Assembly (NCBI GenBank): GCA_019637445.1
Contig: JAHBVS010000002.1
Coordinates: 434,001 to 498,000 of the forward strand
Reading direction: 5' to 3'
DNA length: 64,000 nt
From: Gemmatimonadaceae bacterium
Lineage (GTDB): Bacteria > Gemmatimonadota > Gemmatimonadetes > Gemmatimonadales > Gemmatimonadaceae
The position numbers and the translations under genes are program-made. Numbering within the stretch: the stretch's first letter is position 1; every line of letters starts with the position of its first letter. Positions 29,665 through 45,124 of the stretch are shown piece after piece. Below the pieces are notes generated by a model that ran no database searches, had not been told where the DNA came from, and saw only the letters and a program-made list of their open reading frames with translations.

Positions 29665-30465
29665 TTACAGCTGGATGCCGAGCTTCTCGGTGAAGACCTC
29701 GCGGCGCTCGTCGCTGGCAATCGTGCCGTCGCGCAGCACGACCACGCGGCGCGCATGCGCGGCGATGTCGGGTTCGTGGGTGACCATGATGACCGTCTGG
29801 CCGGTGTCCGCGAGGTTCTCGAACACGCGCATGATCTCCTCGGAGGTCTGCGAGTCGAGGTTACCCGTCGGCTCGTCGGCCAGGAGGATGGACGGCCGGT
29901 TCACCAGCGCACGGGCAATCGCCACACGCTGACGCTGACCGCCGGAGAGCTCGTTCGGCCGGTGATGCACGCGCTGGCCCAGCTGCACCTTCTCCAGGGC
30001 CTCCATCGCGCGCTCCTTGCGCTCGCTGGCCGAGATGCCGGCGTAGACCAGCGGCAGCTCGACGTTGGCCAGCGCCGTGGCACGGGGGAGCAGGTTGAAC
30101 GTCTGGAAGACGAACCCGATCTCCTTGTTGCGCACGCGGGCGAGCTCGTCGTCCTTCATCGTCGAGACGAGCTGGCCGTTGAGCCAGTACTCGCCGGCGT
30201 TGGGCGTGTCCAGGCAGCCGATGATGTTCATCAGCGTGGACTTGCCCGAGCCGGACGGGCCCATGATGGCCACGTATTCGTTGCGGCGGACGGCGAGGTC
30301 CACGCCGCGGAGGGCGCGGACGATCTCGCCGCCCATGTCATACTCGCGCTTCAGGCCGCGGGTGACGATCACCCAGTCGCTGCCCGGCGCGTTGCCGGCG
30401 GACTGCGTGACGATCTGGCGTTCGGCGGTGGTGCTGATGGGGGCTTCGTCGGTCTCGTGGCTCAC
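29665..30465 (-). CDS. ABC transporter ATPase, MacB/LolD type
   Basis: A 266-residue cytoplasmic ATPase: Walker [10 protein letters not shown] at 69-77, Q-loop Gln121, signature [15 protein letters not shown] at 173, Walker [13 protein letters not shown] and an H-loop in MVTHEPD. The TGNLD and [11 protein letters not shown] features place it with MacB/LolD/FtsE-type exporters. It has an extra 30-residue N-terminal leader. It is the only ATPase of the cluster and presumably powers all three permease pairs. The GTG start directly abuts the stop of the fusion-protein gene. Confidence 0.93.
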
Positions 30466-31734
30466 TTACTTGCCCTCCTCGGGCTTCTTGGCGTCAGGCG
30501 TTTCGCGGACGAGCTGTCCGTCCTTCAACTCGCGGATCGCCTGGTAGGTGCCTGCCACGATGCGCTCGCCCGGCTCCAGCCCGGAGAGGACCTCGAAGTG
30601 CTTCTCGCCAGCGATCCCCACCTTTACGGGGCGGAACGTGACTTTGTTGTCCGCGCCGACAATGAACACGCCCTCGACGTCGCGCTTGCCGACCTCGGGT
30701 GCCGCCGTCCCCGTTGAGGGCGGGGCGTCGGTCTGCTTGAGGGCCTCGTTCTCGCGCACCGTCAGCGCGATGATCGGGATCGAGAGCACCTGCGTGCGGG
30801 TGTCCGTGATGATCTTGGCCGTGGACGAGAAGTCCGGGCGGGTGTCCGCCGGGGCATTCAGGATGCGCACGGTCACGAGGTAGTCGATGGCCTGGTCGGC
30901 GCTGCCGGCGGCCGCACGGGCCACCGAGCTGTTGGAGATCTCCGTCACCCGGCCCACGAAGGTCGTGTCCGGGAAGGCGTCGATCTGCACGACGGCCGAG
31001 TCGCCGACGCTGATGCGCGAGACGTCGGTCTCGTCGACCTTCACCTCGGTCTCCAGCACGCTCATGTCCGAGATCGTGAGCAGGATGGCCGCATCACGGT
31101 TCAGCGTGCCCATGATGGCCGTCTCGCCCACCTCGACGTTGAGCCGCGTCACGCGGCCCGTCATCGGGGCGTAGATGGTCGTGCGCGAGAGCTGCCAGTT
31201 GGCATCCTTGAGGCTGGCTTCCGACTGCTTGACGTTCTCCTCGGCGGCGGTCACCAGCGCCTGGTTCACGTCCAGCTGCGTGCGCAGCTGCTCGATCTCC
31301 GCGGCGGAGACCAGTGCGGCGTTGGTCTTGCGGATCTCCTCCTGGCGCTCGTAGTTGCGGCGCGCCTGGAGCTCATTGGCCTTCTGCTGCGCGAGGGACG
31401 CGCGCGCATTGGCCAGCGCCGCCTCCGCACGCTGCACCTGGGCCTCGAACTGCTGCGGGTCGATCTGCAGCAGGAACTGGCCGGACTTCACCCAGTCGCC
31501 CTCCTTGACGGAGAGGCGCGTGATGCGGCCGGTGATGTCGGCGGAGAGGTCCACCTTGGTCTCCGGCACGACCTGGCCGCTGGCGGTGACCGAGGCCACG
31601 AGGTCGCGGGCCTCAACGCCCTCGACGCGCACCACGGTGCCCTTGTTGTTGGAGCGTGCGGCGGAGGTGGCGGCGACGGCTACCACCGCCAACACCACCG
31701 CGCCTGCGATGCCCATCTTCATCTTCTTACTCAT
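30466..31734 (-). CDS. MacA-type periplasmic membrane-fusion protein
   Basis: A 422-residue adaptor: one N-terminal TM/uncleaved signal (about 8-27), a split biotinyl-lipoyl domain (VSADITGRITRLSVKEGDWV-type, about 55-90 and 190-215), an alpha-helical hairpin rich in Ala/Gln/Glu (about 90-190), a beta-barrel and a membrane-proximal domain, and a charged C-terminus. It joins the inner-membrane permeases to the TolC protein encoded just upstream. Twelve bases separate it from the tolC-like gene. Confidence 0.9.
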   Translation of the reverse strand: MSKKMKMGIAGAVVLAVVAVAATSAARSNNKGTVVRVEGVEARDLVASVTASGQVVPETKVDLSADITGRITRLSVKEGDWVKSGQFLLQIDPQQFEAQVQRAEAALANARASLAQQKANELQARRNYERQEEIRKTNAALVSAAEIEQLRTQLDVNQALVTAAEENVKQSEASLKDANWQLSRTTIYAPMTGRVTRLNVEVGETAIMGTLNRDAAILLTISDMSVLETEVKVDETDVSRISVGDSAVVQIDAFPDTTFVGRVTEISNSSVARAAAGSADQAIDYLVTVRILNAPADTRPDFSSTAKIITDTRTQVLSIPIIALTVRENEALKQTDAPPSTGTAAPEVGKRDVEGVFIVGADNKVTFRPVKVGIAGEKHFEVLSGLEPGERIVAGTYQAIRELKDGQLVRETPDAKKPEEGK

Positions 31735-31746
31735 ACGCTCCTCAAC

Positions 31747-33258
31747 TCAGCGAAGGGTGCGGCCGACGGCGTTCTCAAGCGCCGCGTACGCCCGGTGGAA
31801 TTCATAGACTGCGTCGATCCGGTCCGTCTCGGCGCGCTCGTACTCGCCGCGTGCCGTGGTCAGGTCCACGAAGGTGTTGGCCCCGACGCGATACCGCTCC
31901 TCGGCCAGCTGCAGCGCCTCACGCGCCGTGGCCGCATTGCGCTCCTGCAGCTCCACGGCACGATGCGCGGCCTGCAGGGTCACCAGCGCCGACGTCACGT
32001 CGGCCGTGAGCTGCAACTCCTGCCGGCGCACCGAGTACTCGGCGTCACGGCGGGCCGCGTTGGCCTCCTGCAGGCGCGACTCGCGCCCCAGCCCGTCGAA
32101 CAGCGGCAGGGAGATGCCCATCGACAGGTTATAAGGATTTCGCGTGAAATCAAACGGGAACTTGTTGTTCTGGTCCCGGATCGCCTGCTCCTGCGCCGGC
32201 GTGAACACGATGCCCGCGCACTGCGCGGCGATGCTCGACAGGCCGGCTCCGACGCGGATCGAGTCCGTCGTGAAGCAGTTGGCCTGGCTGCTCAGCGCAC
32301 CGGCCTGGGCCTGCGCAATGGTCACATCGATGTTCGTCTGCTTCTGCGTGAACGCACCCACCGAGGCCGAGAACGACAGCGTCGGGGTGTACTCGCTCTG
32401 CGCCGAGCGGACGCCGGCCACGGCGACGCGCTGACGCGCCTGCACGGCGAGCAGCGTCGGATTCTGGCGGCGCGCCGTTTCCAGCAGGTCGCCCAGCTGG
32501 TAGCTCGGCGCGGTGATGGCCAACTCGGCCGTCAGCTCCACGCCCTCGGGCATCGGGACGCCAAGCTGCTGGAAGAGCCGCAGGCGCTCCACTTCCGCGG
32601 TGTTGCGGGCGCGGAGGGCCGCCACTTCCTGCTGGCCGAGCTGCACCTCGGCGCGCTTCACGTCCAGCGAGGTGCCGGCGCCCACGCCGGCGCGGGCCTG
32701 GGCCAGCTCCAGCTGCAGGCGCTGCTGCACCACCAGCGTGTCCTGAAGGTTCGCGCGGGCCTGCGTCTGCAGGGCCAGGAGGAACTGGGCGGTCACGCCC
32801 GAGCGCAGCGTGAACACCGCCGCCTCGACCTCGGCGTCGGCCGCGTCGAGCTGGGCATTGGCCCGCTTGATGTTATTGAAGGTGTTCCAGCTCAGCCGCG
32901 AGCTGGCCGAGAGGTTCCACGAGGACGAGAGGATGTCCGAGGTGGCACCGAAGGCGACACCGCCGAAGAACTGCGGGCGGCCTTCACGATAGCTGGCCCC
33001 GAAGCTGGCGTCGGCGCTGGGCAGCAGCGCGCCGTAGGCCGTGCGCGTGCCGGCGAGGGCGCGCGTGCGGCTGTTCACCGCCTGCTGGTAGACCGGGTTG
33101 TTCCGGCGGGCGATCTCGAGGGCTTCGTCGAGGGACAGCGACGTCCGCGTCGGGGTCTGCGCCGCGGCCGGCAGGGCCGCGCACAGGGCGATCAGGGCGT
33201 AGCGAGGGAATCGGAGCACCGTGTATACCATTGAAAGGATGTCGTAGGTCGCCAACAT
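31747..33258 (-). CDS. TolC-family outer-membrane efflux protein
   Basis: A 503-residue exported protein with two TolC repeats: long helical stretches (LSLDEALEIARRNNPVY early; LQEANAARRDAEYSVRRQEL and ALQLAEERYRVGANTFVDL late) around beta segments. It forms the outer-membrane channel of the tripartite exporter. The ATG at 33258 immediately follows the upstream TAG, suggesting coupling; an alternative ATG at 33231 would give a shorter, more typical signal peptide ending at LPAAAQ. An insert with two cysteines lies near residues 325-345. Confidence 0.9.
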   Translation of the reverse strand: MLATYDILSMVYTVLRFPRYALIALCAALPAAAQTPTRTSLSLDEALEIARRNNPVYQQAVNSRTRALAGTRTAYGALLPSADASFGASYREGRPQFFGGVAFGATSDILSSSWNLSASSRLSWNTFNNIKRANAQLDAADAEVEAAVFTLRSGVTAQFLLALQTQARANLQDTLVVQQRLQLELAQARAGVGAGTSLDVKRAEVQLGQQEVAALRARNTAEVERLRLFQQLGVPMPEGVELTAELAITAPSYQLGDLLETARRQNPTLLAVQARQRVAVAGVRSAQSEYTPTLSFSASVGAFTQKQTNIDVTIAQAQAGALSSQANCFTTDSIRVGAGLSSIAAQCAGIVFTPAQEQAIRDQNNKFPFDFTRNPYNLSMGISLPLFDGLGRESRLQEANAARRDAEYSVRRQELQLTADVTSALVTLQAAHRAVELQERNAATAREALQLAEERYRVGANTFVDLTTARGEYERAETDRIDAVYEFHRAYAALENAVGRTLR

Positions 33259-34050
33259 CTACGACCGCAGCGGCGGGCGGGTTTCAGCGGGTGGTTCGTC
33301 GCGCAGCGCCTCGATCCCCGTCCCGTGGTCGATCACGCGGAGCAGTCGGCCGGAGGCGTTGGTCCAGACCTCATACAGCAGGGTCCCGGAACTGGCCGAG
33401 CGCAGCGACCAGCGGCGCGCCACGATCTCGCGCAGGCCCAACGCGACCCGGTCCGGCGCCTCTTCCTGTACGAGGACGCGGATCTGGGACAGGACGCTGG
33501 GCGTGAACAGCGTGACGGGGCGCCCCTCGCCGAACCGGACGACGAACCACAGGTGGTGGACCAGCCCTTCCTCGGCCACAAAGGTGTCCATCGGCAGGCG
33601 GAACGCGCGGGCCGACTCGCCCACCCGATGCGCCACGCGCCCGGACCACACGCCGCGGTCGAGTTCGCCGACGACGCTCTGCACCAGCACGCCCTCGTTA
33701 CGCAACTCGAGTTGCACGCGCAGCGGGTTCCCGAGGGAGTCCACATTCAGCATCACGGCGCGCCGCTGCTCGCCGAACAGGATGTTGCCTTGGGCGATGA
33801 ACGCGCCCCCCACGCCGCCACGGGTGGCCCGGATGCCGAAGTCCTCGCGCCCGATGCGCTCGCCGTCCCGCAGCAGGGAGAAGCTGCCCTCGTCGAGAAT
33901 CAGCAGCTGAGACTGGGCGAGCGCCGCGGGTGCCGCGAACACGCCGGCCGCCACGGCCGCACCGAACAGCAGCGCCCGGAGACCGTGTCTCAGGGGCCAC
34001 CGATTCGTCTTCACACGCGAGCAATTCGCTCGTTCGGCCGCTGCTGCCAT
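33259..34050 (-). CDS. Exported protein of unknown function at head of the ABC cluster
   Basis: A 263-residue protein with a signal peptide (hydrophobic stretch about 24-45, ending AALAQS). The mature part is beta-rich, beginning GSFSLLRDGERIGREDFGI, and reminiscent of DUF3108/DUF6134-type secreted proteins that bind hydrophobic ligands; I cannot confirm a family. Its TAG abuts the tolC-like ATG, so it is first in the export operon and may work with it. A GTG at 34014 would give a shorter N-terminus. Confidence 0.6.
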   Translation of the reverse strand: MAAAAERANCSRVKTNRWPLRHGLRALLFGAAVAAGVFAAPAALAQSQLLILDEGSFSLLRDGERIGREDFGIRATRGGVGGAFIAQGNILFGEQRRAVMLNVDSLGNPLRVQLELRNEGVLVQSVVGELDRGVWSGRVAHRVGESARAFRLPMDTFVAEEGLVHHLWFVVRFGEGRPVTLFTPSVLSQIRVLVQEEAPDRVALGLREIVARRWSLRSASSGTLLYEVWTNASGRLLRVIDHGTGIEALRDEPPAETRPPLRS

Positions 34051-34133: not shown

Positions 34134-37100
34134 GTGAGTACCCCCCCGGTCGACCTCGTCACGGAGCAACGCGTCCCCGCCACCAGGCCCCGCGGACTGC
34201 GCGAGCCCTGGCTGTGGTTCGCGTCGCTCAGCGTGCTCATCGGGGCAGCCTGGCTGCGCGAAGGCGCCGCCTGGCTGGCTTGGCTGCTGGCGGCCGTCGT
34301 GCTGGGGCTGATGGCGCTGACCCTGCGAACGCGGGCCGCCGCGCGCTGGCGGCGCACGTGGTTTGTCGCCGCTGCACTCGCGCTGCTGGCCGTTGTCGCG
34401 TCCTACCACCGCAGTCTCGCGCAGATGGCCGGCAACGGGGAGGAGGTGCGTAGCGCGCTCACCGAGCAGGCCGGCCGCGCACTGGCTGCGGATGTTGATC
34501 GCGAGATCGAGGTCCTCCAAGGCATCGCCCGCTCGGCCCTGGACGCACCCTCGGCGCCCGCGACCGCCTTCGCGGCGCTCGCCGCGCTCGTGCCCGAAGG
34601 CAGCTCGCGGGCGGTCCTCGTGGCCAAGGGGCGTCGTCCCTTCGCCTGGAGCGGGCGACTGCTCGTGGCGCTCGACTCCCTGCCGGGCGCCACCGGGATC
34701 GTGGCGACCAACTTCTATTTGGTGGCCTATGCCTTGGCCGAGCGGGGCGGGGACCTGGCCGTCGCCACCTCGGTGGTGCACGCGGAGCCGCCGGCGGACC
34801 GCCTAACCCCATCGTTGGCCGCCGACGTCGCGCGCCGGTTTCAGGTGCAGGGTTTCGGCTACGCGGAGCCGAGTGCGGCGCGGGAGGTGCCCGGCGCGGT
34901 CACGGTGCAGGTGGCGGGAGTGCCCGTACTGGCTGCCCGCGCGATGGTGCCGGCGCTCGACGCGCTGCGCGGCCGCGCCTGGGAGCGCGCCGTGCCGCGG
35001 GCCGCCACCGCACTCGCCGCGATGCTGCTCCTGCTGCTCGCGGTGGCCTGGCGGCGGGAGACCGGCCTCACCTCGCGGTTCTTTGCTATCGCCGTGGCCT
35101 TGCTGTTGCCGGTCATCCTGCCCTTGGCGCGCCTGTCCAACGTCGGGACCGTCTTCGATCCCTCGTTCTTCTTCGTACGATCCGGCTGGCGCTTCACGGC
35201 CAACGCCGGGGCGCTGGCCCTCACGGCCGGCCTCTTGCTGCTGGCCCTGCTGTCGGCGCGCCGTGCACGCCTCCGTCTGCCGACGCGCGCCCAGGCCGCC
35301 ATCGGCATCGTCGTGGTCGCTGGCGTCGCCCCGTTCCTGCTGCGCGAGTTGGCCAGCGGTCTCCAGGTGCCGGCCATTGGCGTGTCGGCCGGGCTCTGGG
35401 TGTCGTGGCAGGTCACGATCTTCCTCGCCTCGGTGACCGTGCTGCTCCTCGGCGTCACGCTGGGGCAGGGCGCCATCGCCGGCGATCGTGGCCTGCCGAG
35501 TTGGGTCGCACCAGGTCTGGCGGTGCTGGCCGCGCTGCTCGCACCCTCGCTGCTCGAGGCGCCGGGCCGCTTCCCCCAGGCCTACACGATCCTCTGGGTT
35601 GCCGCCATCGCCGCCCTTGGCATCACGCGGCGCGCGCGCACCGTCGTGTTGCCCGTGGCGATCGTGGCGGCCTGCGGCGCCGCGACCCTGGTCTGGTTCT
35701 CCGCGGTGCGCGAACGGGTGGACCTCGCGATTGCCGACGTGCAGGGACTCTCGCGGGCCGACCGCGATGCGGCGGTGCTGCTGGATCGCTACGCCTCGGT
35801 GCTCGACCCGGCCCGCGCCGCACGCTCCCGTGTCGAGTTGCTCTCACAGTTCGCGCGCAGCGAACTGGCCGGCGCGGAGTATCCGGCCGAGATCACGAGC
35901 TGGGGCACCGACGGCGCCATGCTGGCCGACCTGGTCGTCGGGCGCGCGCCGGGCTCGACGCACGGCGTGAACCTGTTCGCCTACGAGGCGCAGCGCACCC
36001 AGCAGCCCAGTATCACCGAGGTGCGCGGCGATCCCGGCATGCACCTGGTGCTCGCCGTGCCCCACGCGGATGGCAGCGCGACCACCTTGGTCGTCGCGCC
36101 GCGCTCGCGCCTCGTGCCGCAGGATCCCTTCGGCGCCTTCCTGGGACTCTCGCCGCCGCCAGCGCCGGAACCCCCGTACACGCTGCGCCAGGGCGACGCG
36201 ACCAACGCGGCGCCCACGGCCCCGAGCTTCCGCGGCGCCTGGCAGCGCACGGGCAGCGAACTGCACGGCGACTGGCAACTCCCGGGCATCGGCGGGCTCA
36301 GCCAACGCGTGCACGCGGTCGTGGACCTACGGTCGATGGACGCCCTGCTCGTGCGCGGCGTGCTGCTCGTGCTCCTCGACCTCGCCATCCTCGGCTCCAT
36401 CTGGCTCTTGATCGTGACCGCCGAAGGGGTGCTGCCGCGCTGGTGGCGAGCGCGCCGCCGCGAGATCCTCACGAGCTACCGCACGCGCCTCTCGGCCACG
36501 CTCTTCCTCTGCTTCCTGCTACCCTCGCTGCTGTTCGGATTCTGGTCCTTTGGCCGCCTGCAGGCCGACGATCGACAGGCGCGCGACTTGGTGGTGCGGG
36601 AAACGCTGCGCGCCGTCGCCGGCGACACCGTGGACCTGGCCGCGGCAGCCGTGCGTTTCGAGACGCCGCTCTTTCTCTACGCGAGCGGCCTGCTGGTCAG
36701 CACCAGCGATCCGCTGCTCGATGCGCTCGCGCCCGTCGGTCGCCTCCTGCCACCCGGTGTGATCGCCGCGCTGGTGGACGGTGACGAGGTCACGACCGGC
36801 CTCGAAGAGTCGGTGGGACCGGCCAACGTGCGGCTCGGCTTCCGCGCCGCCACGGACTCTGCCGGTGTGCAGTACGTCCTGGCCGCGCCCGCGCGTCTCG
36901 ACGAGCGTCTGCTCGACCGCCGGCGCAACGACCTCGCGATGTTCCTGCTCTTCGCGTTGGCGGCCGGCGCCTTGGCCGCGCTCTGGGCCAGCGGCGCCGC
37001 CTCGCGCCAGCTGTCGAGGCCCATCCGTGTGCTCCGAGAGTCGGCGCTCGCGCTGGCCCGCGGCGAGCGCACGCCGGCCCTGCGCGACGACCCGCCGCTG

Positions 37101-38192
37101 GAGTTCACGCCGGTGTTTCGCGCGTTCCGACAGATGACGGCGGAGTTGGCCGAGAGTCGCGAGGCGCTCGAGGGCGCCGAGCGCCGGCTGGCGGCGACAC
37201 TGCGGAACGTGGCCAGCGGCGTCCTCGCCCTGGACGAGCACGACCGCGTCACCTTCGCCAACCCGCGCGTGGAGGCCGTCCTTGGCGAACCCGTCCAGGT
37301 GGGCGCACGACTGCCCGCCGCCGCGCGCGAACTCCTCGGCGACTCGCTCGACGCCCTGCGCAGTGGCAGTGCCGACGACATCGGCGTGGAACTCGAGGCC
37401 GGCGGCCGCCGCCTCAGCCTCCGCCTCGCGCGCCTCGCGCCGGGCTCGCGCCGCACCGTCGTTACCGTCGATGACGTCACCGAAGTGACGCGCGCCGAGC
37501 GCGTGCTGGCCTGGGGCGAGATGGCCCGCCAGGTGGCCCACGAGATCAAGAATCCCCTCACGCCGATGCGCCTCGGCCTCCAGCACCTCCGCCGCGCCCG
37601 CAGCGATGCGCGCGTGGACTTCGAGCAGGTGCTCGAGGAGAACACGGCGCGGATGCTCGCCGAGATCGACCGTCTGGATGAAATCGCGCGCGCGTTCAGC
37701 CGCTACGGCGCCGCGCCCACGCCCGCACCCGCCACCGAGGCGGTGGATCTCGTGGCCATCGTGCGCGACGTGCTGCAACTCGAGCAGATGGGTCATTCCG
37801 CCGTGACCTGGGAGTCGGAGCTCCCGCCAGGGCCACTGCGGGTGGTGGCCCGCGAGCGCGAGTTGCGCGATGTGCTGCTCAACCTGCTCGAGAATGCGCG
37901 GCTGGCGGGTGCCTCGCGCGTGTGGCTCGAAGTACTGCCCCCCCCGGCGGGCGCCGCGGCCGGGGAGGCGCGCGTCACCGTGCATCTCCGCGACGACGGC
38001 AGCGGCATTCCCTCCCACTTGCTGGAGCGCGTGTTCGAGCCCCAGTTCTCCACCCGCACCAGCGGGAGCGGCCTTGGGCTGGCCATCAGCCGGCGTCTCA
38101 TTGAGTCCTGGGGCGGCAGCATCGGGGCCGCGGCCAACGCACCCGCCGGCACGGTGATGACCCTCCGGCTGGTTCCCGCATCCGAAGCCTGA
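34134..38192 (+). CDS. Very large NtrY-like sensor histidine kinase
   Basis: A 1352-residue inner-membrane kinase, almost twice the usual NtrY length. Helices near 35-110 are followed by an extracytoplasmic segment (about 110-300), then a second multi-helix block (about 305-530) and another extracytoplasmic segment (about 540-745). TM helices follow near 748-768 and 790-812, and a third sensor segment spans about 815-935. After the last helix come HAMP (about 960-1010), PAS (about 1015-1110), HisKA with His1136 in AHEIKNPLTPMRL and an HATPase ending GSGLGLAISRRLIESWGG. The AHEIKNPLTP box is characteristic of NtrY. There is no receiver; a cognate NtrX-like regulator may be the one at 51362. 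The GTG at 34134 is the start. Confidence 0.88.
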   Translation: MSTPPVDLVTEQRVPATRPRGLREPWLWFASLSVLIGAAWLREGAAWLAWLLAAVVLGLMALTLRTRAAARWRRTWFVAAALALLAVVASYHRSLAQMAGNGEEVRSALTEQAGRALAADVDREIEVLQGIARSALDAPSAPATAFAALAALVPEGSSRAVLVAKGRRPFAWSGRLLVALDSLPGATGIVATNFYLVAYALAERGGDLAVATSVVHAEPPADRLTPSLAADVARRFQVQGFGYAEPSAAREVPGAVTVQVAGVPVLAARAMVPALDALRGRAWERAVPRAATALAAMLLLLLAVAWRRETGLTSRFFAIAVALLLPVILPLARLSNVGTVFDPSFFFVRSGWRFTANAGALALTAGLLLLALLSARRARLRLPTRAQAAIGIVVVAGVAPFLLRELASGLQVPAIGVSAGLWVSWQVTIFLASVTVLLLGVTLGQGAIAGDRGLPSWVAPGLAVLAALLAPSLLEAPGRFPQAYTILWVAAIAALGITRRARTVVLPVAIVAACGAATLVWFSAVRERVDLAIADVQGLSRADRDAAVLLDRYASVLDPARAARSRVELLSQFARSELAGAEYPAEITSWGTDGAMLADLVVGRAPGSTHGVNLFAYEAQRTQQPSITEVRGDPGMHLVLAVPHADGSATTLVVAPRSRLVPQDPFGAFLGLSPPPAPEPPYTLRQGDATNAAPTAPSFRGAWQRTGSELHGDWQLPGIGGLSQRVHAVVDLRSMDALLVRGVLLVLLDLAILGSIWLLIVTAEGVLPRWWRARRREILTSYRTRLSATLFLCFLLPSLLFGFWSFGRLQADDRQARDLVVRETLRAVAGDTVDLAAAAVRFETPLFLYASGLLVSTSDPLLDALAPVGRLLPPGVIAALVDGDEVTTGLEESVGPANVRLGFRAATDSAGVQYVLAAPARLDERLLDRRRNDLAMFLLFALAAGALAALWASGAASRQLSRPIRVLRESALALARGERTPALRDDPPLEFTPVFRAFRQMTAELAESREALEGAERRLAATLRNVASGVLALDEHDRVTFANPRVEAVLGEPVQVGARLPAAARELLGDSLDALRSGSADDIGVELEAGGRRLSLRLARLAPGSRRTVVTVDDVTEVTRAERVLAWGEMARQVAHEIKNPLTPMRLGLQHLRRARSDARVDFEQVLEENTARMLAEIDRLDEIARAFSRYGAAPTPAPATEAVDLVAIVRDVLQLEQMGHSAVTWESELPPGPLRVVARERELRDVLLNLLENARLAGASRVWLEVLPPPAGAAAGEARVTVHLRDDGSGIPSHLLERVFEPQFSTRTSGSGLGLAISRRLIESWGGSIGAAANAPAGTVMTLRLVPASEA

Positions 38193-38208: not shown

Positions 38209-39981
38209 ATGAACACCGCCGAGTCCGCGACGCCCAACCGTCACTCGACCGGAATTCCGCCGCACCTCGACGGATGGCAGTTGCCTCCGGACTGGCGCTG
38301 GGGGAACGAGGGCGTGTACACGCCGCATCGCCACGCGCACGAGGTGATCGATGCCCTCGGCCGCTCGCTGGCGCTGGTCACGGCGCCGGACCCGACGCAC
38401 CATCCCTGGCTCTTCGCCGAGGCGCGGCACCTCGCGCACCGCAACCATCCGAGCATCCCGACCACCTACCACTTCTGGCAGCAGCACGTCGGGAGTCGGC
38501 GCGGACCCGGCTACCTGCGGCGCTGGATCTCCGGCGAGACGGTCGGCGAGCGCCTGCGGCGCAACGGGCCGGAAACGGTGCCCTTCGCGCTGCGCGTGCT
38601 GCGCGCCATCGGATCCACGCTGGCGTACCTGCACGACTCGGGCGGCGTGCACGGCGCGGTGTCACCGGAGTCGGTCTACCTCACGCCGACGGGCCGCATC
38701 TGGCTGCTGGGCTGGCAGTGGGCGGTGCCGGCCACCGAGCGCCCGCAGGGCCTGGAGCCGCACACGGCCTGGAACCCGCAGGTGCCCGAATGGCGCGGCA
38801 ACTGGCGCTCGACCCCTGAGTCCGACCAGTGGCAGCTGGGCGCGCTGGCCTTTGCGCTGTTGACGGGCGAGGTGCCCGAGGCAGGCGCCGTGCCGCCGAT
38901 CCGCATCGCGCGGCCGGAGACGCCGGCGACGGTGGCAGAGCTTGTGGACAAGCTGCTGCACGAATCGCCGTCAGAACGTTTCGCATCGGTGGCGGGGATG
39001 CTCCGGCGCATCGAGCGCATTTCCGGGACGGCGGCGCTGGCGTTCCCGGGCACCGAGCAGGCTAGCGGCGAACACGTTGCGGTGTCCGAGGAGGACCGCC
39101 TCCGCTGGGCCACGGGCGACGACTACGAGGTGCTCGCGCCCTTGGGTAACGGCACCTACGGCTCCGTGTGGCGCGTGCGAGACCTCTCGCTCGAACGCGA
39201 GGTCGCGCTCAAGATGTTGCATCCGGTCGTCGCTCGGAACGCCGTGGCGGTGGCGCGCTTCCGTCGCGAGGCGCAGCTGGCCGCACAGCTCCAGCATCCG
39301 GCCATCGTGCCCATCTTCGCCTGGGACAACAAGGGCGACGTGAACTGGTACATCATGGAGCTCGAGGAAGAGGGCTCCGTCGCCGACTTGGTGAAGCGCT
39401 CAGGCCCACGGCCCTTCGAGGAAATCGCGCCGCAGGTGGATGCCATCCTGGATGGCCTCGCCGTGGCGCATCAGGCTGGGATCATCCACCGCGACCTCAA
39501 GCCCGAGAACATCCTGATCGATCGCTACCGGCGCTGGCGCGTCGCCGACTTCGGCATCGCGAACGCCCTGGGTTCACAGGTCGCCGGTGCCTCGGGCACA
39601 CCCGCCTTCGCCGCGCCGGAGCAACTACTGGGCGAGGAGCAGGGCGTCGGGACCGACCTGTTCGCCGTGGCCGCCATCGTGATCTTCGCGCTCTCGGGCA
39701 AGGTGCCCTTCGAGGGCGAGGACGGGCGCGCCATCCTCGCGGCGCAGCTGGCGCGGCGCGCCGACCTCGATCAGTTCCCCGACGCGCTCGCCCGCTGGCT
39801 GGACCGCGCGCTGTCGCCCGACCCGAAGGCGCGCTACGCCGACGCCGAGCGGATGCGCGCCGCCTGGCGCACGACCGTGCGTGACGTGATGCGCGAGCAG
39901 CGCCGGGCCGGGAATGTCGTGTGGCGCTCGTTGCGACGCCTCGGGGCCGCGTTTCGCGCGCGGCCCAGCGCTGCGCCCTAG
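38209..39981 (+). CDS. Tandem pseudokinase-Ser/Thr kinase
   Basis: A 590-residue soluble protein with two kinase-like halves. The C-terminal kinase (about 306-560) is complete: glycine loop GNGTYGSV at 313-320, Lys335 in VALK, HRDLKPEN from 427 (Asp429), DFG at 447-449 and TPAFAAPE. The N-terminal half (about 22-275) keeps the kinase pattern but is catalytically degraded: YLHDSGGVHGAVSPESVYL at 140-158 has HGA in place of HRD, LGW at 167-169 replaces DFG, no glycine loop is seen, yet ESDQWQLGALAFALLTGEVP (204-223) matches the SDxWxLG region. No TM helix. It begins 16 bases after the NtrY-like gene, so the pair probably signal together. Confidence 0.88.
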   Translation: MNTAESATPNRHSTGIPPHLDGWQLPPDWRWGNEGVYTPHRHAHEVIDALGRSLALVTAPDPTHHPWLFAEARHLAHRNHPSIPTTYHFWQQHVGSRRGPGYLRRWISGETVGERLRRNGPETVPFALRVLRAIGSTLAYLHDSGGVHGAVSPESVYLTPTGRIWLLGWQWAVPATERPQGLEPHTAWNPQVPEWRGNWRSTPESDQWQLGALAFALLTGEVPEAGAVPPIRIARPETPATVAELVDKLLHESPSERFASVAGMLRRIERISGTAALAFPGTEQASGEHVAVSEEDRLRWATGDDYEVLAPLGNGTYGSVWRVRDLSLEREVALKMLHPVVARNAVAVARFRREAQLAAQLQHPAIVPIFAWDNKGDVNWYIMELEEEGSVADLVKRSGPRPFEEIAPQVDAILDGLAVAHQAGIIHRDLKPENILIDRYRRWRVADFGIANALGSQVAGASGTPAFAAPEQLLGEEQGVGTDLFAVAAIVIFALSGKVPFEGEDGRAILAAQLARRADLDQFPDALARWLDRALSPDPKARYADAERMRAAWRTTVRDVMREQRRAGNVVWRSLRRLGAAFRARPSAAP

Positions 39982-44557: not shown

Positions 44558-44587
44558 CCGCTTGGCGTCGCGGTTAGATTGCGCGCC

Positions 44588-45124
44588 ATGTCGACGTCAT
44601 CTCTTGCCTTTGAAGTCCGCAACTCGGCCATCGCCGGCCGCGGTGCCTTTGCCACCCGCCCCATCAAGCAGGGCGAGCGCATCATCGAGTACACGGGGGA
44701 GCGCATCACCCACGAGGAAGCCGACCGTCGCTACGACGATGAGTCGATGGACGAGCACCACACCTTCCTCTTCACGGTGTCCAACCGCACGGTGATCGAC
44801 GCGACGCACGGCGGCAACGAGGCGCGCTTCATCAATCACTCCTGCGACCCAAACTGCGAGACGGAGATCGTCCGCGGTCGCGTGTGGATCTCGGCGATCC
44901 AGGACATCGCCCTCGGTGAGGAACTGCACTACGACTACGCCTATGAGCGCAGCGGCGACGAGACGGAGGCGGACGAGAAGATGTACAAGTGCCTCTGCGG
45001 CACGGCCAAGTGTCGCGGCTCGATCATGGAGCCCATCGCGACCTTCGAGGCCCGCCAGCGCGAGGAAGCGCGCGCCAAGCAGCGCCGCGCCGCGGCGAAG
45101 CGGAAGAAGCTCCAGCGGGCGTAG
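44588..45124 (+). CDS. SET-domain protein lysine methyltransferase with post-SET motif
   Basis: A 178-residue protein. The SET domain fills residues about 6-120: NSAIAGRGAFATRPIKQGE (GxG SAM motif), RFINHSCDPNC at 80-90 and GEELHYDYAYE at 110-120 with the catalytic-region Tyr. It continues into a canonical post-SET zinc motif, C-x-C-x4-C (Cys135, Cys137, Cys142), normally completed by the Cys of NHSC. A Lys/Arg-rich tail ends the protein. SAM-dependent lysine methylation of a protein is expected; the target is unknown. The ATG at 44588 begins at the conserved region; an upstream TTG is less likely. Confidence 0.9.
   Translation: MSTSSLAFEVRNSAIAGRGAFATRPIKQGERIIEYTGERITHEEADRRYDDESMDEHHTFLFTVSNRTVIDATHGGNEARFINHSCDPNCETEIVRGRVWISAIQDIALGEELHYDYAYERSGDETEADEKMYKCLCGTAKCRGSIMEPIATFEARQREEARAKQRRAAAKRKKLQRA

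Follow-up and report, generated by a model that had tools for sequence, protein, structure and literature searches.

One gene of the window (the whole stretch of 64,000 nucleotides analysed here, from a member of the Gemmatimonadaceae) raises the question of what a kinase domain that appears catalytically dead is doing directly in front of one that appears alive. The first-pass annotation described the product as a tandem of pseudokinase and kinase, a description that the sequence, the predicted fold and about 70 orthologues all support. Because the dead half has been kept in nearly every genome of the family, it is probably a working regulatory part of the protein, much as in the human GCN2 and JAK kinases. 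The gene and the layout of its product are as follows:

38209 to 39981, plus strand: the tandem pseudokinase-kinase gene, 590 aa from an ATG start, an open reading frame exactly as first annotated
38269 to 39024, plus strand: N-terminal pseudokinase domain, residues 21-272, recognised by an AlphaFold kinase fold, by PDB matches and by sequence kinship to PknA/PknB
39025 to 39108, plus strand: variable linker closing in the conserved helix E295-x-R-L-R-W-A
39115 to 39852, plus strand: C-terminal active-type Ser/Thr kinase domain, residues 303-548, matching PF00069 at 143 bits, with invariant catalytic residues
39844 to 39957, plus strand: long C-terminal helix, residues 546-583

Kinase domains are all that Pfam recognises in this protein: the Pkinase match in the C-terminal half spans residues 306-547 (143 bits for that half alone), and the match in the N-terminal half reaches 24.0 bits, under the Pfam cut-off of 31.7. 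There is no transmembrane (TM) segment, the sole hydrophobic stretch being the kinase helix alphaF, and the gene product is by prediction a cytosolic two-domain protein. Most orthologues terminate in W-W-R-R-(L) on the long C-terminal helix, a tail that possibly serves in binding to a membrane or a partner.

The kinship of the N-terminal half to kinases is visible at the level of both sequence and predicted structure. By phmmer it is related to PknA and PknB (PknA at E 1e-15 over residues 59-260), and with a profile of 30 orthologues the kinase match reaches 1e-18. AlphaFold models built from the 30-sequence alignment give this domain five N-lobe strands, helix alphaC and a helical C-lobe, which is the bilobal kinase fold. 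The isolated N-domain model has a pTM of 0.77 and an N-lobe of low confidence; in the full-length model (mean pLDDT 82, pTM 0.53, relative domain placement unreliable) the same N-lobe reaches about 80-87. Compared with PknB (6b2p), the N-domain model gives a Z of 21.8 over 233 residues at 3.1 A. Structure prediction of residues 20-280, proposed at the outset as the way to challenge the assignment, therefore returns a kinase fold, and an N-domain without one is rejected because the predicted fold is clear. MviN is not among the PDB matches listed for the N-domain, which rules nothing out.

What the N-domain has lost, and what it has kept, was counted over 69 distinct aligned sequences taken from the 30-orthologue scan and from further loci of the genome collection. 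The positions concerned are:

38377 to 38379, plus strand: V57, replacing the beta3 ATP-binding Lys (V in 68/69, I in 1/69)
38419 to 38421, plus strand: E71, the alphaC Glu, kept despite its lost Lys partner (69/69)
38515 to 38529, plus strand: L103-R104-R105-W106-I107, the hinge/gatekeeper strand as placed by alignment, with bulky residues at the ATP adenine site
38650 to 38658, plus strand: H148-G149-A150, replacing HRD
38710 to 38721, plus strand: G168-W169-Q170-W171, replacing DFG, with both Trp in 69/69
38788 to 38790, plus strand: E194, equivalent to the APE Glu, kept (69/69)

The register of these motifs is fixed by the alignment of the N-domain and C-domain profiles with each other (E 1.5e-17 over 218 columns). 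Loss of the catalytic HRD Asp and of the DFG Asp from the N-terminal half had been claimed from the single sequence, and both losses are confirmed and conserved in the 69-sequence alignment. The motif assignment itself needs correction, as the ungapped register and the profile alignment place DFG at G168-W169-Q170 (GWQ/GWE) and not at LGW, and the beta3 (VAIK) Lys is also lost. More specifically, the HRD-Asp position is occupied by A in 59 sequences, G in four, S in four, C in one and D in one, while the DFG-Asp position is occupied by G in 60, E in four, A in three, H in one and D in one. Each Asp is thus missing in 68/69 sequences and the beta3 Lys is absent from 69/69; the two lone Asp exceptions belong to different sequences, and the set of Lys and both Asp occurs in 0/69. 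Also retained in 69/69 are the Asp of alphaF (D206) and the Arg of the C-lobe (R257), which with E71 and E194 make up a preserved structural scaffold. R104, R105 and W106 of the hinge are at least 97% conserved, and across the family 59 pseudokinase positions are conserved at this level of at least 97%. To judge from the alignment, the residue losses are a family-wide fixed pattern, far beyond chance, and the N-domain lacks the residues that would bind ATP, bind metal and carry out catalysis, the replacements themselves being fixed. Some pseudokinases retain ATP binding; for this N-domain the residues alone predict its loss.

The C-terminal half had been described as a complete Ser/Thr kinase, and this is upheld by the PF00069 score of 143 bits and by a catalytic set that is invariant where covered. 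Its principal features are:

39211 to 39213, plus strand: K335, the beta3 Lys, invariant where covered
39487 to 39510, plus strand: HRDLKPEN catalytic loop, residues 427-434
39547 to 39621, plus strand: activation segment from DFG to APE, at 25 residues shorter than any other measured in the genome

Residues G313, G315, G318 and K335 are present in 68/68 of the sequences covering them, and HRDLKPEN and DFG in 66/66, one L430I aside; in every covering sequence the G-loop, K335, E354, HRDLKPEN, DFG and APE are intact. By these residues the C-domain is an intact Hanks-type, PknB-type Ser/Thr kinase. Its activation segment compares with segments of 26-38 residues in the other kinases of the genome. 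The TxxG threonine motif, typically T-x-x-G before GTP-x-Y, is present in most of those kinases and absent from the tandem-kinase segment. Ser or Thr stands at 461-462 in most orthologues, which would leave the options for loop phosphorylation reduced, with some remaining. Two other kinases of the genome are also short-looped (26 and 28 residues), without a comparable partner domain. The genome (G000) is kinase-rich, with 32 Pkinase domains above the Pfam cut-off in 3.35 Mb, and by a Pkinase family search the tandem protein is its only one with two kinase domains.

The phylogenetic distribution of the tandem protein points to a long history within a single family. One scan of bacterial genomes returned 30 full or partial orthologues at 54-83% identity, all from MAGs and nearly all named Gemmatimonadetes or Gemmatimonadaceae. 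When the N-domain profile was run against 395 genomes in a survey of the phylum, nearly all members of the Gemmatimonadaceae gave E of about 1e-110 or better; outside that family, within the same phylum, the best N-domain match was 2.5e-25, which is the level of an ordinary kinase, and the tandem family is not recognised there. The search for the same two-domain order in related genomes, suggested at the outset, finds it in 99 of the 105 good-quality Gemmatimonadaceae genomes, nearly always in single copy, and the gene lies in a conserved chromosomal context, not in an island. A second copy, 42-44% identical and in a frame of about 695 aa, is found in genus g12 (L072 in G089 and L073 in G039); these copies keep the whole architecture and the same losses in another gene neighbourhood.

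When the N-domains and C-domains were placed in one tree with 28 further kinase domains from the window's genome, the N-domains formed one clade and the C-domains another (each 100/100). The C-domains fall among the kinases of the genome, while a long branch carries the N-domains, which do not group as sisters of the C-domains. Because each domain forms a single clade, one fusion and one degeneration, maintained together, would be the simplest account. Recent internal duplication is rejected, both for the lack of a sister relationship between the two domains in that tree and because the N profile gives several other kinases of the genome higher scores (up to 62 bits) than the C-domain of its own protein (30 bits). 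Among close pairs the N-domain has a dN/dS of about 0.02-0.12 and the C-domain one of 0-0.08, ratios by which purifying selection is acting on both; the medians over all pairs (0.34 for N, 0.27 for C) are not trusted and were set aside in favour of the close pairs because synonymous sites are saturated.

A pseudokinase ahead of a kinase is not an arrangement unique to eukaryotes, an idea that is rejected because PglW and some DndF proteins already have it. PglW, of BREX type 2, and a subset of DndF carry an inactive pseudokinase and then an active kinase in one polypeptide (PMC12839542; PMC4365076). PglW is bacterial, has the same order, and its profile spans both domains of the tandem protein in one alignment (residues 127-566). 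However, PglW has an N-terminal NERD nuclease and, in its long C-terminal half, wHTH repeats and an inactive STAND; it reaches 1400-1600 aa and is found in defence islands, whereas the tandem protein consists of two kinase domains alone, in 590 aa, and is encoded by a chromosomal gene near-universal in one family. Against NCBIfam PglW the tandem protein scores 107.6 bits, the cut-off being 990, which places it outside that family, and its N-domain scores 22.9 bits against PglW versus 63 bits against ordinary kinase profiles. PADLOC matches to PD-T4-6 / MAD6 fall on the kinase domains and seem to reflect homology shared by kinases generally, the MAD6 score of the tandem protein being 174 against an NCBIfam cut-off of 460.

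The best-described regulation of a kinase by a pseudokinase in cis is eukaryotic, in GCN2 and JAK. The resemblance to JAK proposed in the first-pass annotation holds for arrangement only, as JAK (JH2-JH1) has a pseudokinase and then a kinase in one chain; the JAKs are tyrosine kinases with FERM-SH2, which the tandem protein does not have. In GCN2 the pseudokinase is N-terminal to a Ser/Thr kinase, and it contacts and directly activates that adjacent kinase (PMC4014428). GCN2 differs in its RWD, HisRS and ribosome-binding domains, absent from the tandem protein, and the likeness in mechanism is by analogy. GCN2 (Ser/Thr, same order) and the bacterial PglW are nonetheless closer parallels than JAK, and analogy with GCN2, with JAK and possibly with PglW makes control of the live domain by the dead one plausible.

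Bacterial pseudokinases are experimentally largely uncharacterised (PMC12599244). A 2025 review covers ActPs1-3, GLW, CP1, DYD and DLHK, and the words 'tandem' and 'Gemmatimonad' are absent from it (PMC12599244). The MviN (ActPs3) and GLW pseudokinases resemble the N-domain in the loss of all three catalytic motifs and in bulky aromatics at the ATP site, the ATP-free pocket of MviN being filled by aromatics; they differ in a C-terminal TM region and in other signatures, and none is described with an active kinase in the same chain (PMC12599244). ActPs3/MviN proteins have degenerate motifs and an activation-loop deletion, with a TM region given for many but not all members (PMC12599244). The motifs of the tandem protein are also degenerate, but what follows its N-domain is a kinase domain instead of a TM region, which sets it apart from ActPs3/MviN. 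GLW pseudokinases have GLW for HRD, LLLL/W at beta3 and a C-terminal TM (PMC12599244); the N-domain has HGA at HRD and L-A/S-L-V at beta3, without a TM, and falls outside this group as well. With kinases of the PknA/PknB type the tandem protein shares an ordinary Hanks-type C-domain (PF00069) and a PknB-like fold in both domains, but it has no TM or PASTA sensor and has instead a leading pseudokinase and a shortened activation segment. The tandem family fits none of the pseudokinase families compared and is new as a stand-alone, lineage-core form. Nothing was found on it or on Gemmatimonas kinases in the open-licence literature, although absence is not thereby proven.

The gene neighbourhood offers one candidate partner:

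34134 to 38192, plus strand: upstream co-directional membrane histidine kinase (HK), 1352 aa

The tandem gene starts 16 bases past the stop of the HK gene, confirming the spacing first reported. The HK has HAMP, PAS, HisKA and HATPase_c domains, a membrane part that is long and conserved, and about 12 hydrophobic segments; it is catalytically intact by sequence, with H1136 and the N and G boxes kept. It lies directly upstream on the same strand in 43 of 60 tandem-kinase loci (some of them near-duplicates), mostly with gaps of less than 75 bases, and is a convergent neighbour one gene away in five more. Among the 105 good genomes the HK is near-universal (99/105); by counts combined by hand, both genes occur together in 95, the tandem kinase without the HK in four (three of genus g4 and one fragmented assembly), the HK without the tandem kinase in four (genera g13 and g14), and neither in two. 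In genus g4 no recognisable HK accompanies the tandem kinase in 4/4 genomes (G020, G022, G190, G300), and the tandem gene still adjoins a divergent TolC gene. In g11 and g23 the HK is absent from the tandem-kinase locus. Because g4 is without the HK and g13/g14 are without the tandem kinase, the link is common but dispensable, and an obligatory partnership is weakened by such genera keeping one gene without the other. No response regulator gene was recognised beside the HK in the neighbourhoods examined. The crosstalk of histidine and Ser/Thr phosphorylation that was proposed from the adjacency is thus weakly supported, being suggested by the 43 of 60 loci and opposed by these genera.

Long retention, an intact scaffold and fixed substitutions in the active site make a non-catalytic regulator the best reading of such a module. 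The module stands directly before a kinase that has a short loop and lacks a sensor, which makes this kinase the likeliest target. There is about an even chance that the pseudokinase regulates the adjacent kinase allosterically in cis. If so, its pocket would be shut by a set of aromatic and hydrophobic residues comprising V57, the R104-R105-W106 hinge, W169 and W171, and with the pocket closed it would be a fixed regulatory module that binds protein and turns over no ATP. It would contact the neighbouring kinase domain and set its active conformation, standing in for what PknB-type kinases have in their extracellular sensor and TM segment, and for phosphorylation of the activation loop, which is short and has few sites for it. 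The input signal would probably be protein binding to the pseudokinase; the upstream HK may be one candidate input in most lineages and cannot be the sole one. There is a slight lean toward activation, as in GCN2, over inhibition, as in JAK. It is rather improbable that the dead domain takes a signal from the membrane HK and allosterically switches on the soluble Ser/Thr kinase, a relay that would lead from two-component into Hanks-type signalling.

The conservation of the N-domain fits docking or scaffolding equally well as in-cis allostery, and the main rivals are docking to the HK or another partner and scaffolding of the MviN kind. It is conceivable, if unlikely, that the pseudokinase is a docking module acting in trans, which would bring the Ser/Thr kinase to the upstream HK or its regulator and so couple His and Ser/Thr phosphorylation. 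The intact HK, its position at most loci and the 95 good genomes with both genes are in keeping with such a role, but co-occurrence is weak evidence because both genes are near-universal in the family, g4 has the tandem gene only, g13/g14 have the HK only, and in g11/g23 the HK is off the locus. Furthermore, the HK-less genus has changed just 1/59 of the highly conserved N-domain sites, no more than other lineages. A domain acting mainly as a phospho-acceptor or MviN-like scaffold, recruiting substrates or FHA-type readers while the intrinsic activity of the kinase stays unchanged, is likewise doubtful: MviN and EssB/YukC are bacterial precedents (PMC12599244), and the Trp/Arg-rich N-lobe and hinge are heavily conserved, but no FHA gene was noticed adjoining the tandem gene in the loci compared, and the orthologue alignment has few conserved Ser/Thr in the variable linker (residues 273-294).

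A new catalytic or ligand-binding activity in the style of SelO or SidJ, in place of protein binding, is very improbable. The invariant polar positions R41, H42, H80, R98, R104, R105, H142 and H148 speak for it, yet all three nucleotide-handling motifs are gone and their replacements are hydrophobic, aromatic or small, with no migrated catalytic set. SelO and SidJ have a migrated catalytic set and retain the Lys and the metal-binding Asp. That the N-domain is the functionless, decaying remnant of a duplicated kinase has a negligible probability; the loss of catalytic residues is its one support, and a decaying pseudogene is rejected on the 59 conserved positions, on close-pair dN/dS far below 1 and on a domain kept intact through the whole history of the family.

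As a small soluble protein without nuclease or sensor domains, with about 150 natural sequences, the tandem protein is a direct test case for control of a live kinase by a dead one in bacteria. If in-cis allostery is true, one bacterial family evolved pseudokinase-kinase control as a core trait and outside defence, and the tandem protein would be a minimal model for allostery of the JAK/GCN2 type.

Several other features of the locus were observed. A divergent exporter operon at 29665-34050 encodes an ABC ATPase, an HlyD-type protein, a TolC-type protein and a small secreted protein, and its order is conserved upstream of the HK/tandem-kinase pair in most loci. At L017 and L067 (G248 and G026) the tandem ORF has no stop and continues in frame into a signal-peptide-like stretch and a TonB-dependent receptor, an open frame of about 1300 aa, with similar long frames in G307 and G258. 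This is either a real fusion of a cytosolic kinase and an exported receptor, which signal peptidase could split, or a shared frame with an internal start. The interval 44579-45124 encodes a SET-domain-like protein of 181 aa, a type of domain uncommon in bacteria, and in related loci this protein is conserved after the TonB receptor.
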